From a virus, in IMG/VR virus record IMGVR_UViG_3300032342_000061, positions 1 to 25,750 of that record: a stretch of 25,750 nucleotides of DNA; one strand, given 5' to 3'. How positions within the stretch are numbered: the stretch's first letter is position 1; every line of letters begins with the position of its first letter. A model generated the notes under the pieces. The model had not been told where the DNA came from. It did no database searches and saw only the letters and a list, made by a program, of their open reading frames with translations. The translations under genes were made by a program, and so were the position numbers. This document shows, in pieces, positions 1,733 to 11,466 of the stretch.

Positions 1733-2359
1733 TTACTTTTTTCTAAGATCGTTCTTAAGGAACATCTTAATTTCGGTTACAAGGTGCTTCTGTGCTTTTG
1801 GATCGTCACGAATCTCCTCAGCAAGTGTCATGATTCTATTCCCATTTTTTGCGTTCTGAAGTGATTCAAACACACTTTGTGGCATAGCACCTGGTGCTGA
1901 CGGTGTAGCAACAATATCAATTGTAACAAACGAGAATCCTTCAACTTCACCATCGTCCTTAACGTTTCCAGCTCCACGTGAGCTAACACCAAGACGAACA
2001 CCACTCTCAATCAACGTACGAGCAATTCTTCCTGATGGGGTATCAAGAATTTGAAGACGACCAACTGCGTTGCTCCCCTCCATGCGGATTTCTTTGATAG
2101 CGTGTGAGATACGGTCTAGGTTAATGTTAAGTGTTTGTGGATGGTCAAGTTCACCGAAGATTCCATTGCACTCTTTGATCCTTGCGTACGCCTCTGTAAC
2201 AGCACGTGCAATTTCTGTCACAGGATACTTACGCTTGTTGCGGTTCTCAATTGCACCTTGCATGAGAATTCCAGAAAGGTAGCAACTCTTACCATCACGT
2301 GACGCTTCGGTAATAATGTTACATTCTGTTGGGGTAAGTTCTTCGATTAGTAGTTTCAT
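1733..2359 (-). CDS. 21: Prohead core protein protease gp21
   Basis: Morphogenetic serine protease (T4 gp21, peptidase family S77, herpesvirus-assemblin-like fold), 208 residues. It is built into the prohead core and cleaves gp23, gp22, gp67 and itself before DNA packaging. Motifs seen: YLSGILMQGAIENRNKRKYP near residue 27, the catalytic-His motif GELDHP (His73) and the catalytic-Ser motif LGVSSRG (Ser126/127). NIITE|AS near residue 18 fits the enzyme's own (I/L)-x-E cleavage rule and could be the self-processing site. The start at 2359 is supported by AAGGAC about 7 bases upstream, which lies in the last codons of the gp67-like gene; the two genes are 3 bases apart in the same frame, suggesting translational coupling. 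Confidence 0.92.
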   Translation of the reverse strand: MKLLIEELTPTECNIITEASRDGKSCYLSGILMQGAIENRNKRKYPVTEIARAVTEAYARIKECNGIFGELDHPQTLNINLDRISHAIKEIRMEGSNAVGRLQILDTPSGRIARTLIESGVRLGVSSRGAGNVKDDGEVEGFSFVTIDIVATPSAPGAMPQSVFESLQNAKNGNRIMTLAEEIRDDPKAQKHLVTEIKMFLKNDLRKK

Positions 2360-4446: not shown

Positions 4447-5472
4447 TTAGTCTACTTCATACAGAGCACCATACTTGTTTGATACGAATTTATCAAACGA
4501 TAGTGCTTCGTTAGGAACATAACCGTGTCCTGTTAAAACACCCCGAAAATAGCAGTGAATTACAGAGACGGCACCAGCTGCTGTTGTCTTTTGAATTGCT
4601 GTGTATTTTAAGTCACTATAGAATTTTTTCAGGTATGTCTTTGTTGTCAGCCGTCCTTTAATATGTCCTGTAACCTCAACGAATAGAATGACAACATCGT
4701 CATCACAATACGGAACATCACGTCGAAATAGTTCAACGACTTCTTGTTGTGTCATCTGTAAATCATCAATAAGGAACGCTATTCTATCACGATGGCCTTT
4801 GTAACGGATAGACTTATATGTTAGACTTCGTGTTGGTTTTACAGAATCAAATAATGTTCCAATTCCACCAGATGTATTGAACGCTTCATACTCGCAACCA
4901 TCAAGAGCTAATAGTTCGTGTCCTTCTAGAGGCTGCAACATTACGTGTTGTCCGTTAACAATTGCAGGGCACGGTTGCATATATTCATTGACTAACCCTT
5001 CTAAGGACCAAGATAGATAGTATCTAATGTCATTTGTTGCTGCTCTTGGTAGAGCACCGACACGTATTTTTGCGTCACGAACAGTATCAAATTTGGCGGC
5101 GAGATCGTGTGTTATGATACTTACGGCACCGGGAGCAAGTCCGCATTGAGGCATCATAATTGCGTCGTTAGACAGCAATCTAATTGCATCCGTTATTCCA
5201 ATGTCTTCTGTGAGATCAAAATATGCTGTCCCAACCAGAGCTGCAGCTTGTGCGATCCTGAGATTGACAGCGTATGGCGTTGCAGCAATAACGCCATCGT
5301 ATGCTGATACCAGTTTTTCGAGAATTTTTGGATTTGCTGTTACGTCCGTTTGATTGACGTGTGGTACTGTTACATTGGGATCATAAATGTCAACATCGTA
5401 CCCAAGATCTGTTAAATAATCATATACGGTCTGACCAATAAGACCGTATCCGAAAAGTGCGATATGTTCCAT
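4447..5472 (-). CDS. Saccharopine-dehydrogenase-like oxidoreductase (metabolic gene)
   Basis: A 341-residue NAD(P)-dependent enzyme of the saccharopine dehydrogenase / carboxynorspermidine synthase superfamily. An N-terminal Rossmann fold starts with GYGLIGQ (GxGxxG at residues 8-13). The second half carries GLAPGAVSIITHDLA (about 112-126), RYYLSWSLEGLVNEY (about 150-164), EAFNTSGGIGTLFDSV and SIRYKGHRDRI, the pattern of the family's substrate-binding domain. Family members act in lysine metabolism or polyamine (carboxynorspermidine, homospermidine) synthesis; the substrate cannot be told from sequence. It is shorter than the usual cellular enzymes (roughly 370-450 aa). The start at 5472 has AGGGGA about 7 bases upstream and an AATAAATA late-type promoter 24 bases upstream. 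It is an auxiliary metabolic gene inside the structural block, apparently expressed late. Confidence 0.78.
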   Translation of the reverse strand: MEHIALFGYGLIGQTVYDYLTDLGYDVDIYDPNVTVPHVNQTDVTANPKILEKLVSAYDGVIAATPYAVNLRIAQAAALVGTAYFDLTEDIGITDAIRLLSNDAIMMPQCGLAPGAVSIITHDLAAKFDTVRDAKIRVGALPRAATNDIRYYLSWSLEGLVNEYMQPCPAIVNGQHVMLQPLEGHELLALDGCEYEAFNTSGGIGTLFDSVKPTRSLTYKSIRYKGHRDRIAFLIDDLQMTQQEVVELFRRDVPYCDDDVVILFVEVTGHIKGRLTTKTYLKKFYSDLKYTAIQKTTAAGAVSVIHCYFRGVLTGHGYVPNEALSFDKFVSNKYGALYEVD

Positions 5473-5530: not shown

Positions 5531-7939
5531 TTAAAATGTTGCAAGTACTCGAGCACTACCTGGAGCTGGTGATGTTGCTTCGGTAATCTTAGCAACCTTC
5601 ATTCTTTCCATATCCTTATACATCTGGAGAAGTTCTTCCATTGTTTTTCCGGTCGATGTTGATGTAGTATTGAGTCGTTCTAGAAGAACTATCATCGCTG
5701 CGGTTGGGTCACTCTTACCAGTGGCTGATGTTGCTGCTGCAGCGGCTGTACCAGGTTTGATTCCTTCTCCAGGTACTCTTTCAGTTAGTGGTGGTTGCCC
5801 TCTCTGGGCTCTCCTTGCGTTAATATCAGCAAGAGTTATACTTGCAGTTGCTTCAGGTGCCTCACTAGCTAACATTTCTGATAACTTATCTGCCCCACCC
5901 GACTTTTTCATGACATAATCCGTTGCAAAGTAGGCAGCAGCTCCAGTTGCAGCAAGTACGGTGGCGGTACCAAGAAGTCCTATACCTGCGGCTCCAGCGG
6001 CGGCAGTACCTGCACCTCCACCAGCAGCCGCACCTGTAGTAGCTACTCCCTCCAAAATACCACCAGCAACTGAGACGCCTGCCCTTTTTAGTAATGTGGT
6101 TGCTAAAGCACCAAGTCCCTTTTCAAATATGGTACCAAGAAACTTTGTTGCTATAAGTCCACCTGCACCAATCAGAATTCCTGCCAATCCATTACCCTTC
6201 AGCCAACCAAAAATTGCACCAAGTGTAGCACCCATCTCCCCAATTCTATTGAATATACCTTTAGTGGTACCATCAATATTACTGAGGCTTTGTACAGACT
6301 GCTCACTCTTCTTTCCTCCTCCTGATATAGTTGCTTCTGTTGCGACATCCTCAAAGAATTTTCGGTCTGCTGTTGGCATTTTTTCAAGAGCCTTATCTAG
6401 AAACACTTGATTCTGGTCTGCTGCAACATCACCTCGTTTACTCGCTTCGGCGATTTGTTCCTTGATTGCCCTTCCAGCGTTTGCTTGCAGTTCAATAAAG
6501 CGCGCTTTATCTGTGTCAGACATTGCACCTGGTGCTTTTCGTCCAAGTCGTTGTATTTCGGCAACTTGTCCGGGTGGTAACCCAGCCCTAGCTGCAATTA
6601 GAGCCAACATTTGAGCAGACTTCATTCTTGAAACAGGCGTCGTTTGTGCACGCATTTTCTCGAAATTCACAGCAAGCTCACGGGCTTTCTGAGATGAAAG
6701 ACCAATCATTACAAATTCCTCTTGTCTTGCTTTTATGCTAGCCAGCACCTGTTCTCGGTCTTTTTCTGTTACCTTTGACATTGCTTCCCGGAACTCTGAA
6801 TCTTCAAGTAGTTGTTCATCAAGTTCAATAATTCGTTCTGGCAACATATTGGTAACATGTGAGAGACGTTCGACTCCCTTCAGATAACTTGAGGATTCTG
6901 TTTTTAATTCACCAACTGTTTTTGTGTGTGATGATGTTTGTTGCTGTAATTTAAAAGCGGCCGCTGCCAGTTTTCCACTAAGGATTGGATCACTACCTGC
7001 CATTTTGAATGTCTGTTCTTGAAGATCATTCAGTGTCATTGCATACGCTTCAGCACCTTCCTTAACAGCAAGAACAGAATCTTTTTGTGTCTGCATTATT
7101 TCCTGCAGATCCTTAACTTGTATTAGAAGTCTTGCTGATGCTTCATAAAATGGCTGCACACCAGATTTTTGGTAGAACTTAGCTGATTCAACAAGCTGTT
7201 CACCAGCTTTTCTGAATCCATCAATCAGCGTCTTTGTGAACAATGCTGACATGCCTTTTGCTATCTTTGCAGCACCGCCACCCTTTTCAAATGAATCTGC
7301 TATTGATCCTGGTAAACCACCTGCTGATTTCATTCCTTCTAGCATACCGTCATGCACAGCTGTCGCTGCGGACTTCATATCGGTGGCAATGTCATCCATG
7401 GTCTTACGGATTTTCTTTCCTTGCGTTTCAAGGCCAGCACTTTGACTTTGAAAAGCCTGAGAAAGTCGAATTACTTGGTCTTCAGTTAGTTTTCCGCCCT
7501 TTTCTAGCTGTGTAAATATTACTTCAAGATCCTCTCCAACATGAATTACATCTCTTAGATTAGCCCCAACATCCTGGTATGACTTTACAAGTTGTCTTAG
7601 CATTTGTTCTTGCTGACCGACGTTTGTGTCAACCTCTTTAAATGAATCTATAAGTATGTCTGTTTGACCTGCAAGAGCATTCAAAGCTTGCGTGTACTTA
7701 GCCGTACCACGAGCTGTCTTTTCAAATTTGTCACCAGTTAACTGTAGAGAGTCAGCGAGTTCGTCGAGATGTTTGTTGATCTTGTTTGTTTTGAACGAGT
7801 TGGCTGTTGCCGATAGGTGATGCTGAATAGCACCAATAGTCGTATCTGCATCATGAAGGGTATCAGTCAAAAGTCTTGTATTTGATCTAATCTCGCGCGA
7901 CAGCGTTGCCAATTCAGTTGCTGATATTGTATTTGCCAT
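5531..7939 (-). CDS. Probable tail tape-measure protein (large coiled-coil structural protein)
   Basis: An 802-residue protein with long charged, helical heptad-rich stretches (about residues 1-560). A hydrophobic Gly/Ala-rich region follows (about 580-690, including GLAGILIGAGGLIATKFLG and AAGIGLLGTATVLAATGA), then a helical C-terminus. That layout is typical of tape measures, which set tail length and pass into the host membrane. T4 gp29 is about 590 aa; at roughly 1.5 angstroms per residue this one would fit a tail near 120 nm (inference). The neighbouring gp26/gp51 frameshift cassette supports it, since tape measures usually lie beside such chaperone genes, although here the strand is opposite. 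Start 7939 has AGAGGA about 8 bases upstream and an exact late promoter. Another coiled-coil virion protein cannot be excluded. Confidence 0.62.
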   Translation of the reverse strand: MANTISATELATLSREIRSNTRLLTDTLHDADTTIGAIQHHLSATANSFKTNKINKHLDELADSLQLTGDKFEKTARGTAKYTQALNALAGQTDILIDSFKEVDTNVGQQEQMLRQLVKSYQDVGANLRDVIHVGEDLEVIFTQLEKGGKLTEDQVIRLSQAFQSQSAGLETQGKKIRKTMDDIATDMKSAATAVHDGMLEGMKSAGGLPGSIADSFEKGGGAAKIAKGMSALFTKTLIDGFRKAGEQLVESAKFYQKSGVQPFYEASARLLIQVKDLQEIMQTQKDSVLAVKEGAEAYAMTLNDLQEQTFKMAGSDPILSGKLAAAAFKLQQQTSSHTKTVGELKTESSSYLKGVERLSHVTNMLPERIIELDEQLLEDSEFREAMSKVTEKDREQVLASIKARQEEFVMIGLSSQKARELAVNFEKMRAQTTPVSRMKSAQMLALIAARAGLPPGQVAEIQRLGRKAPGAMSDTDKARFIELQANAGRAIKEQIAEASKRGDVAADQNQVFLDKALEKMPTADRKFFEDVATEATISGGGKKSEQSVQSLSNIDGTTKGIFNRIGEMGATLGAIFGWLKGNGLAGILIGAGGLIATKFLGTIFEKGLGALATTLLKRAGVSVAGGILEGVATTGAAAGGGAGTAAAGAAGIGLLGTATVLAATGAAAYFATDYVMKKSGGADKLSEMLASEAPEATASITLADINARRAQRGQPPLTERVPGEGIKPGTAAAAATSATGKSDPTAAMIVLLERLNTTSTSTGKTMEELLQMYKDMERMKVAKITEATSPAPGSARVLATF

Positions 7940-7969: not shown

Positions 7970-8055
7970 ACATGTGGCGTTAACGGAGAAAGTGGGTATT
8001 CTGCCAATAGAGACAACGTGATATATAATTTTACATGTACGTAAATGAGGACATT

Positions 8056-8850
8056 ATGGAAACAACAGTAAAATCAAATCCACTTCTAGAAAACCTTCGA
8101 CTTCCCGGTGAAACAGTTCGACTCCCGTCTGGTGGGATGTTTTATAAGAATGGAGAACTAGCATCACATGTAAACAACGGTGAGATTCATGTGTATCCAA
8201 TGAACACATATGAAGAGATTCTGATGAAAAGTCCAGATAAACTTCTCAATGGTGATGCGGTTCAGGAAGTGTTTACAAGATGTATTCCCGATATCCTAAA
8301 ACCTTTAGATTTATTTGCACGTGATGTTGACTATTTGATTCTCGTACTTAGACGAGTAACATATGGAAATACTGTTGATATTCCATATACCCATAACTGT
8401 GATAGTATTTCTCACACCTATGTAGTAGATATTTCGCCGTTTATTCAACAGGCGAAAATTATTGATCCTACGACACTATCAACAAACTATCAATTAACAC
8501 TTCCTAATCAACAAGTGGTTGAGATAATTCCTGTTAGGTTTGGTCAAACAATTAAGATGTTGCAGGAAGGAAGTGTGCAAAGAATACAGGATCTAACTGA
8601 TGATGATATTAAGAATCAGTTCTATGATTCTTTAGTTAGTGTAATATCTGCTGTAGATGGCTGCACAGATCCAAAAATGATCCGTGAGTGGATTGAACAA
8701 ATTAGTGCAGGTTGGTCCCGTCAAATCCAGACTGCCATGGAAAGGAATAGTAACTGGGGTCCTGAAACAGTGTCGACTGTAATATGTAAAACTTGTCAAA
8801 AACCACTAGAACTCGATTTATCGTTAAACCCGATAACTTTTTTCTCCTAA
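8056..8850 (+). CDS. 26: gp26-like baseplate hub assembly / tail chaperone protein (zero-frame product)
   Basis: A 264-residue protein resembling the T4 gp26 baseplate family: RLPSGGMFYKNGEL near residue 26, EIHVYPMNTYEEILMKSPDK and LLNGDAVQEVFTRCIPDI, then DVDYLILVLRRVTYGN. It ends with a Cys-x2-Cys motif (CKTCQKPLELDLSLNP). The start chosen is the ATG at 8056 (METTVKSNP), because GAGGA stands 5 bases upstream; an in-frame ATG at 8035 has no ribosome site. T4 gp26 is needed for hub assembly together with gp51. The last codons hold a -1 slippery sequence, so part of the ribosomes should make a longer gp26-gp51 fusion. A TATATAAT element at 8022-8029 may act as promoter, though it is a poor late-promoter match. 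Confidence 0.78.
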   Translation: METTVKSNPLLENLRLPGETVRLPSGGMFYKNGELASHVNNGEIHVYPMNTYEEILMKSPDKLLNGDAVQEVFTRCIPDILKPLDLFARDVDYLILVLRRVTYGNTVDIPYTHNCDSISHTYVVDISPFIQQAKIIDPTTLSTNYQLTLPNQQVVEIIPVRFGQTIKMLQEGSVQRIQDLTDDDIKNQFYDSLVSVISAVDGCTDPKMIREWIEQISAGWSRQIQTAMERNSNWGPETVSTVICKTCQKPLELDLSLNPITFFS

Positions 8851-8878
8851 CTCTCAGGTATCGGGCTCCGTCTGAGAG
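8838..8878 (+). promoter_or_regulatory. Programmed -1 ribosomal frameshift signal (gp26 to gp51)
   Basis: Slippery heptamer T TTT TTC at 8838-8844, phased with the gp26 codons ACT TTT TTC. After a 6-base spacer that contains the zero-frame stop (8848-8850) comes a stem-loop with arms CTCTCAG (8851-8857) and CTGAGAG (8872-8878), and an inner CGG/CCG stem (8862-8864 with 8868-8870). All three parts of a canonical -1 site are present with normal spacing. A shifted ribosome reads on as FF-LLTLRYRAP into the downstream frame. Confidence 0.8.
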
Positions 8879-9074
8879 AGCTGCCTATATTGCCCGGCTA
8901 CAAGCTGAAGCTGGTATCTTGATCGATAGTGTAATATCTCTCGTGTACTTTATGCGTGGTGCAATATCATACCACGAAATGATGACATTATCTAGAAAGG
9001 AACGAGATCGGATTTCAGACTTTATTAAGGAAAGATTGGAACAAGAAAAGGATAAGCCTAATCCAATATACTAA
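8844..9074 (+). CDS. 51: gp51-like domain, made as a -1 frameshift extension of gp26
   Basis: Seventy-six codons in the -1 frame after the slippery site, from LLTLRYRAPSERAAY through SVISLVYFMRGAISYHEMM to a charged helical tail ending KPNPIY. The fused product would be about 339 residues. The frame has no ATG near its beginning: the only upstream start is a TTG at 8793 without a ribosome site, and the first ATGs lie deep inside at FMRG and EMM. Frameshifting is therefore the best explanation for its expression. In T4, gene 51 directly follows gene 26 and acts in hub assembly; position and size fit, but sequence similarity to T4 gp51 was not tested. The stop overlaps the stop of the convergent helicase gene by two bases. 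Confidence 0.68.
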   Translation, partial: LLTLRYRAPSERAAYIARLQAEAGILIDSVISLVYFMRGAISYHEMMTLSRKERDRISDFIKERLEQEKDKPNPIY

Positions 9075-10734: not shown

Positions 10735-11466
10735 ATGTTGACTTTCAAACAATACCTACTCGAGGAAGTTAAGAAGAGTAAGGAAATCAATTTTGAGTAT
10801 CATGCTGAGCTAAATCCAGAAATTTGGAAAGGCGACAAACTCCGTCCAGAAGTGCGAAAGAAAGCACTTGAAATAGCGAAAGAGTTTCTCAATTCGTTCC
10901 CAACAAAGCTCAAGGTCATCGACATTTACATTCCTGGAAGTCTTGCAAACTACAACTGGACAAAGAAGTCCGACTTCGATCTCCACATAATTATTGATCC
11001 TGTTTCCTGTCGTGGTATTAATGTTGACGATTATTTCAAAGCAAAGGGAGCTGAGTGGAAGACTAAGCACAATATTTCAATTCGTGGGTTTAAAGTTGAG
11101 GTGTTTATTGAGCCAAAAGGAACAACACATGAGTCTAGTGCTGAATATAGCATTGAGAGTGATAAGTGGATCAAAAAACCCAAACACATCAAAGATTTAG
11201 AAATTGATGAAGATGAAATTGAGAAAACCGTAAGGAATTTGCAGAAAAAAATACGGATTTTGCTTTCCAAAAATGCAAATCCCAAGGAGATAGAGAAATT
11301 AAAGGAAAAAATTAGGGTTATGCGGGAACGCGGCCTATATCGAACAAAAAAAGGCGAGTTTTCCGTTGGAAACCTCGCCTTTAAAGCACTGAGAAGTAAA
11401 GGTGATCTTGACCGTCTTACACGCGCGAAACGATCAAGAGAAGATGAAAAACTGTCTTTGGATTAG
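10735..11466 (+). CDS. Nucleotidyltransferase with a capsid-targeting-like N-terminus
   Basis: A 243-residue pol-beta-fold nucleotidyltransferase. GSLANYNWTKKSDFDL (68-83) gives the GS motif plus the metal-binding pair Asp80/Asp82, and FKVEVFIE gives a likely third acid, Glu122, so the active site looks complete. A coiled coil follows (about 158-200), then GEFSVGNLAFKALRSKG. The first ten residues, MLTFKQYLLE, match position by position the capsid-targeting tag of T4 internal proteins (MKTYQEFIAE), which ends in a gp21 cleavage site. With a late promoter and a strong ribosome site (AAGGAG), this suggests an enzyme packaged in the head and injected with the DNA. The substrate is unknown; tRNA-type, antitoxin-like and OAS-like families share these motifs. 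A minus-strand terminator is embedded near its 3' end. Confidence 0.75.
   Translation: MLTFKQYLLEEVKKSKEINFEYHAELNPEIWKGDKLRPEVRKKALEIAKEFLNSFPTKLKVIDIYIPGSLANYNWTKKSDFDLHIIIDPVSCRGINVDDYFKAKGAEWKTKHNISIRGFKVEVFIEPKGTTHESSAEYSIESDKWIKKPKHIKDLEIDEDEIEKTVRNLQKKIRILLSKNANPKEIEKLKEKIRVMRERGLYRTKKGEFSVGNLAFKALRSKGDLDRLTRAKRSREDEKLSLD
11346..11382 (-). terminator. Rho-independent terminator inside the nucleotidyltransferase gene
   Basis: Read on the minus strand: AAAGGCGAG, then GTTTCC-AAC-GGAAAA, then CTCGCCTTT, running into seven U. The stem has 9 perfect pairs, one mismatch and 5 more pairs with a 3-base loop. It would end minus-strand transcription coming from the membrane-protein gene, about 90 bases past that gene's stop, within the last 120 bases of the convergent coding sequence. 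Confidence 0.8.

Follow-up and report, generated by a model that had tools for sequence, protein, structure and literature searches.

The window, by which we mean the whole stretch of DNA analysed here, is a 25,750-base virus record with T4-type portal and prohead protease genes on its minus strand. On the plus strand lies a gp26-like gene, overlapped at its end by a second open frame in the −1 register and flanked upstream by a long divergent gene; the coordinates of these features are collected in the table below. The start assigned to gp26 agrees with that of its relatives, and a second in-frame ATG is present at 8035. An IMG/VR contig (L001) carries a gp26 that is 100% identical to that of the window, with the same site and the same −1 frame. 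The minus strand also holds, between the portal gene and the tape-measure-like gene, a gene for a saccharopine dehydrogenase-like enzyme (4447–5472; PF16653, 6e-16), i.e., a metabolic gene within a structural block, and the plus strand encodes a nucleotidyltransferase-domain protein at 10735–11466 (PF01909, 2e-5; phrog_36119, 7e-48).

Table. Features of the gp26 region of the window. TAC, tail assembly chaperone.
Feature	Position	Strand	Basis
gp26-like gene, putative TAC-N (264 aa), zero frame	8056..8850	+	PF12322, phrog_150, tblastn 63 phage records
Slippery heptamer T TTT TTC, in phase	8838..8844	+	sequence; T TTT TTY in 46/51 distinct loci
Zero-frame stop TAA of gp26	8848..8850	+	sequence
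Stem-loop of putative stimulatory role (stem of 7-8 bp, 3 bp inside)	8851..8878	+	folds at -12.4 kcal/mol
Putative TAC-C, -1 frame, 76 codons after slip + stop	8844..9074	+	identity to XacN1, RAS14, CM1, Atu_ph07
Probable tape measure, 802 aa, divergent from gp26	5531..7939	-	composition, position

The zero-frame codons at the end of gp26 are ACT TTT TTC TCC TAA, which places the heptamer in the phase required for a −1 slip and leaves a 6-base spacer, TCCTAA (8845–8850), that contains the zero-frame stop. In the −1 frame, codons run without interruption from 8790 to 9071 before a stop at 9072–9074, so that a ribosome slipping at the heptamer would produce a protein reading ...NPITFF-LLTLRYRAPSERAAY..., with 263 + 76 = 339 residues. 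Within 15 codons after the slip the −1 frame of the window has no ATG, GTG or TTG, and the sole start codon in the open frame upstream of the slip is a TTG at 8793 without any SD-like stretch. A preliminary description of this DNA had proposed the heptamer, its phase, the spacer with the stop and a downstream frame without a nearby ATG or ribosome site, and all of these were verified on the sequence. The heptamer alone is not rare, since TTTTTTC occurs six times on the plus strand and three times on the minus strand of the window, and it is thus phase, position and conservation that decide. Among 21 chosen open reading frames of the window, gp26 alone combines an A/T-type in-phase heptamer in its last 60 bases with a long −1 continuation. 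Three others have long −1 continuations (562, 897 and 237 codons) without a heptamer, each being simply the next gene, and one (1733–2359, minus strand) ends in AAAAAAG followed by 6 further codons only.

To compare the site between phages we used tblastn, which found gp26 in 63 phage records, 17 of which were fetched, and gathered further relatives from IMG/VR, partly with two tight gp26 alignments. Before counting we dropped L001 (the same as the window), L003 (the same as L002), L020 (near L008), L079 (near L066) and exact repeats; the resulting set comprises 41 distinct loci, window included. The nearest named relative in gp26 is XacN1, at 37.8% identity. At the terminal Phe-Phe of gp26, 38 of the 41 loci carry T TTT TTY, compared with 9.06 expected from their own codon use, though the loci share ancestry. 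Beyond the gp26 stop, every one of the 41 has an open −1 frame, which in three of them runs off the end of the contig. When the second frame was itself used as a tblastn query it matched 5 phage records, all among the 63 with gp26 and all offset by −1; the identities are 38.0% for XacN1, 35.5% for RAS14 and CM1, and 30.8% for Atu_ph07, in each case in the −1 frame relative to gp26. The differences beyond the gp26 stop fall on codon positions 1, 2 and 3 of the −1 frame in the numbers 58, 30 and 195 (nine relative pairs, 598 codons), which means that this frame is selected as protein.

The same arrangement extends to the wider T4-like phages. The profiles phrog_150 and phrog_634 located gp26 and the C-terminal part in all six of the wider records. 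At a Phe-Phe near the end of gp26, with the −1 frame open behind it, P-SSM2, S-PM2 and KVP40 have T TTT TTC and phiM12 and HTVC008M have T TTT TTT, and a further clade (L011, L080 and L082, with L081 repeating L080) has T TTT TTC in three of three distinct loci. Treating L011 and L012 separately from the original 41, and adding L012, T4 itself, the five phages just named and the three loci of the further clade, we find T TTT TTY in 46 of 51 distinct loci. The remaining five are L056, L063 and L064, which have T TTC TTC, L012, where the second part is likely to lie in the +1 frame, and T4. The comparison of relatives suggested in the preliminary description recovers the conserved slippery site, but not a stem-loop common to them. 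A separate, ATG-started gp51 in the absence of a conserved site, which would have spoken against frameshifting, is the situation of T4 itself and not of the 46 loci.

The most serious alternative is that the second frame forms a small gene in its own right, expressed unfused by a restart at or after the gp26 stop through translational coupling. An ATG lies within 15 codons of the slip in 25 of the 41 loci, several times as an ATGA overlapping the gp26 stop, so in those loci a restart could yield a separate TAC-C, and the second frame is annotated as a coding sequence of its own in, e.g., Phosso, 121Q, BF and XbC2. However, 14 of the 41 loci (the window and 13 others) have no ATG, GTG or TTG in that interval, and in Paride and PA5oct we found none anywhere in the open −1 frame. 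SD-like stretches for the second frame occur in only 4 of the 41 loci, the mutual similarity of the relatives in this frame begins at the slip, and T TTT TTY is retained beyond what codon use would give. Taken together, we regard a separate gene as improbable. Still less probable, if slightly, is a fusion made by RNA polymerase, through transcriptional slippage on the run of T, and not by the ribosome. The runs of 6 to 8 T would be in its favor, but most loci keep exactly the six T needed for T TTT TTC, and a run of six T before a C is rather short for a polymerase to slip on. Finally, the idea that T TTT TTC merely reflects the codons of a conserved Phe-Phe, with the −1 frame open by chance, would account for the invariance of FF in the gp26 protein alignment and for a heptamer that occurs nine times in the window, but T followed by TTT as the first Phe codon in 38 loci, against the 9.06 expected, and a −1 frame that stays open in each of the 41 and shows protein-type evolution leave it with a negligible probability.

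The preliminary description had also pointed to a GC-containing stem-loop, with 7 bp plus an inner 3 bp, behind the slip. The structure exists, as an inverted repeat of CTCTCAG (8851–8857) and CTGAGAG (8872–8878) with CGG and CCG inside, but it is no stabler than shuffled sequence and is not shared. Compared with dinucleotide shuffles the hairpin of the window has a z of −0.57, with 57 of 200 shuffles folding as well, and a second test gave a z of −1.00. For the 45-base stretch after the slip, in 34 of the 41 loci (window included), the mean z is −0.73 and 7 of the 34 fall below −1.5, the strongest folds being those of L048, L007, L050, L051 and L008. For a 60-base stretch, 5 of 14 relatives fall below −1.5, among them XacN1 (z −5.09, with no shuffle as good), Paride (−3.54) and Atu_ph07 (−2.65). 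A stem-loop as a common driver of frameshifting is not supported, since the relatives have no such element in common, but some of them may each rely on a different hairpin.

The membership of the window protein in the gp26 family is clear from its match to PF12322 (T4_baseplate; E 6e-8 and 33.1 bits, the cut-off being 24.5) and to phrog_150 (E 3.5e-12). We modelled gp26 with AlphaFold2 from a 22-sequence alignment (pLDDT 85.3) and compared the model with 470 Foldseek-preselected PDB chains using VIA. The best match was YqbN (3klu, Z 6.2), the second the HK97 tail assembly chaperone (2ob9, Z 5.7), the third 5ir0 (Z 4.4) and the fourth had a Z of 2.9, where any Z below 8 may reflect no more than a common arrangement. 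YqbN is classed as a tail chaperone; a search of the literature to 2012 for the name YqbN found no paper. The alignment to 2ob9 covers 98 residues with an rmsd of 5.1 and has a Foldseek E of 4.2, and Foldseek alone found no match to the gp26 model in the PDB with E < 0.001. The resemblance of the predicted fold supports a chaperone role without proving it. Among predicted viral structures, the relatives of gp26 are baseplate hub or hub assembly proteins where they are named, the best matches being baseplate hub assembly. A lone PDB match to the gp26 profile, the ribosomal protein uS4 with an E of 0.3, was taken as chance and rejected.

A T4 review (PMC3004832) counts both gp26 and gp51 among the chaperones of hub assembly, and describes gp51 as required for T4 assembly yet absent from the particle. 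The same review refers to genetic studies that put T4 gp26 in the hub, which argues against a purely non-structural chaperone, as does the annotation of the CBB homologue of gp26 as a 'structural protein'.

The name gp51, which the preliminary description gave to the second frame, is appropriate in the sense in which it is used for cyanophages, but not in the sense of T4. Gene 51 of T4 is separate and divergent from gene 26, and its product is full-length with a gp26-like part of its own: the phrog_150 profile matches over its positions 13–280 of 282, phrog_634 matches the end, and a single BLASTP comparison of T4 gp26 with T4 gp51 gives an E of 2e-6. This is what would be expected if T4 gp51 consisted of TAC-N plus TAC-C. 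T4 shares with the window the gp26 family, but differs in having two separate divergent genes, no slippery site and a gp51 with its own N part. The end of T4 gp26, K-E-F-F-E-L-L with the codons GAG TTC TTT GAG, keeps the Phe-Phe while the slippery site is absent. The short end domain of T4 gp51 can be aligned to the cyanophage one, and in a single hhalign comparison the TAC-C of the window matches the cyanophage/T4 C-terminal part weakly (E 2e-4, probability 47%, 34–35 columns). The second frame of the window thus corresponds, weakly, to the last part of gp51. The window TAC-C had no match to T4 gp51 alone, and the window gp26 alignment matches T4 gp26 alone and gp51 alone weakly, with probabilities of 22% and 6%. 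A protein search with the window gp26 across the 25,750 bases finds only itself; this record is a fragment, and a further copy, such as a full-length gene 51, may lie outside it. PMC3037559 describes the cyanophage 'gp51' as found without its first ~200 residues, and a frameshift offers a reason for this.

The preliminary description had further named the 802-residue neighbour as the tape measure served by this chaperone, which is plausible from its position, its composition and weak family matches of its relatives, but is not backed by any similarity to T4 gp29. The protein has no Cys, 2.1% Pro and two hydrophobic segments. A gene for 709–1239 residues lies in the same divergent position in 28 of the 33 relatives examined, a count in which L056 and L057 are repeats and the annotated start was used for Paride. 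The five others are XacN1, RAS14 and Atu_ph07, where the immediate neighbour of gp26 is another gene, a vibriophage in which the adjacent gene lies on the opposite strand, and L053, where the flanking sequence does not reach far enough. By BLASTP against a small database the window protein matches 8 of the same-position proteins at < 1e-3, the best at 8e-12. Cys is absent from all nine same-position proteins tested (window included) and hydrophobic segments are present in eight, 121Q having none; T4 gp29 is similar, whereas all three other window proteins used for comparison contain Cys and none has a hydrophobic segment. In a set of 18 same-position proteins that were aligned, 2 match phrog_794 and 2 phrog_23574, both tape measure families, and among the same 18 there are matches to peptidase (8), endolysin (7) and tail lysin (3) families.

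Several other searches with this protein or its relatives were negative or pointed elsewhere. The 802-residue protein itself has no match in PHROGs and none to T4 gp29, for which reason we rejected an identification by similarity to gp29; a tblastn search with it against phages gave nothing at 1e-4, and Pfam recognizes no family at 1e-3 in the 18 same-position members. The copy of the neighbour in L048 matched 27 records, over a short part at most, in genes annotated, where listed, as peptidase, hypothetical or late control gene D. The same-position gene of RaK2 is annotated as similar to tape measure, in a family that PHROGs files under head and packaging, and that of PA5oct carries the annotation of a virion protein found by mass spectrometry, a remark that is missing from PA5oct gp26. 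For Atu_ph07, the authors of PMC6102473 name gp701, 15 genes from gp26, as the tape measure. On balance the 802-residue neighbour is probably the tape measure of the window phage.

The site, its phase, the open frame and their conservation strongly support the central claim of the preliminary description, a −1 frameshift that yields a tail assembly chaperone in two forms. Judging from the sequences, gp26 is very probably the TAC-N of this phage and its fusion to the second frame the TAC-NC, with the divergent 802-residue neighbour as the most likely client. For most ribosomes the end of gp26 would then be the end of translation, and the product the 264-residue TAC-N. A minority, holding one tRNA-Phe on TTT and another on TTC, would move back by one base to pair again with TTT TTT, read past the gp26 stop in the −1 register and append the 76 residues of TAC-C; their product would be a TAC-NC of 339 residues, joined at ...NPITFF-LLTLRYR.... 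Both the slip and its low rate are what we infer from the arrangement of the site. The tape measure protein, for which the 802-residue neighbour is the likeliest candidate, would be covered by many copies of TAC-N and a few of TAC-NC, and this mixture would recruit tail tube subunits as gpG and gpGT do in lambda.

Lambda G/GT and similar pairs of tail assembly chaperones make a short and a long form by a −1 shift, near the tape measure gene. The window resembles lambda in the two forms that such a shift would make, but has another slippery sequence, and the resemblance in fold to the HK97 chaperone is limited to the Z of 5.7. The tail assembly chaperones of T4-like phages were reportedly identified by Vladimirov, Gautam and Davidson in 2022 (Virology 566:9-15), who reportedly saw frameshifting retained by several groups of T4-like phages, with separate genes 26 and 51 in T4; our results fit this. 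The suggestion that such a mechanism had gone undescribed for T4-type gp26/gp51 consequently does not stand: the 2022 study, cited in PMC12846349, had already assigned these chaperones, and section 3.8.3 of PMC12846349 credits it with polyT slippery sequences in T4-like TAC-N genes. The same paper describes a GTTTTT slippery site in the Vandenendeviridae, whose chaperone is alike in having a short and a long form but differs in this slippery sequence. The closest likeness is to the T4-like chaperones, with a gp26-family TAC-N and a polyT −1 site at its end leading into TAC-C, the site being the same in P-SSM2, S-PM2, KVP40, phiM12 and HTVC008M; the difference is that the window phage belongs to a deeply diverged jumbo-phage branch. 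In the open-licence literature we recognised no paper describing the site in RaK2- or XacN1-type phages. The window is a new example of a known mechanism, with a well-conserved −1 site in a new phage. A joined gp26 coding sequence is annotated in none of 15 annotated phage records (L004–L010 and L013–L020), where the C-terminal part is either missing or a separate hypothetical or predicted protein; for Paride, PA5oct and RaK2 nothing is annotated there. An overlooked C-terminal part is thus present in many jumbo T4-like phages.

The exceptions to the common site take different forms. T TTC TTC lies at position 4765 of L056, 4771 of L063 and 4768 of L064, each with a −1 frame that is still open and conserved, and in L063 and L064 an ATGA overlaps the gp26 stop. 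By our reasoning this is a poorer site, since an A-site mismatch would remain after the slip. L012 (4150–4570; LR756508, a 484-kb uncultured phage) has a TAC-C-like YYSNGGYSWYNVYHHMPVHHRKF downstream of its gp26 relative in the +1 and not the −1 frame, and no T TTT TTY site; a search of IMG/VR for a relative of this locus found none, and L012 is possibly a +1 frameshift variant. It is conceivable, though we consider it rather unlikely, that members of the gp26 family are changing how they produce TAC-NC: most branches would keep an ancestral T TTT TTY −1 site, three metagenomic relatives would have altered it to T TTC TTC (an ATGA for restart being present in two of them), LR756508 would have a +1 arrangement in its place, and T4 an additional full-length gene. 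In that case these relatives would preserve stages of a transition from frameshifting to separate genes.

A few bases beyond TTTTTTC, a GCTTCT is found repeatedly in the enterobacterial-type jumbo phages (L009, L010, L014–L018, L074 and L078), and may be an effect of coding in two frames or an extra signal.
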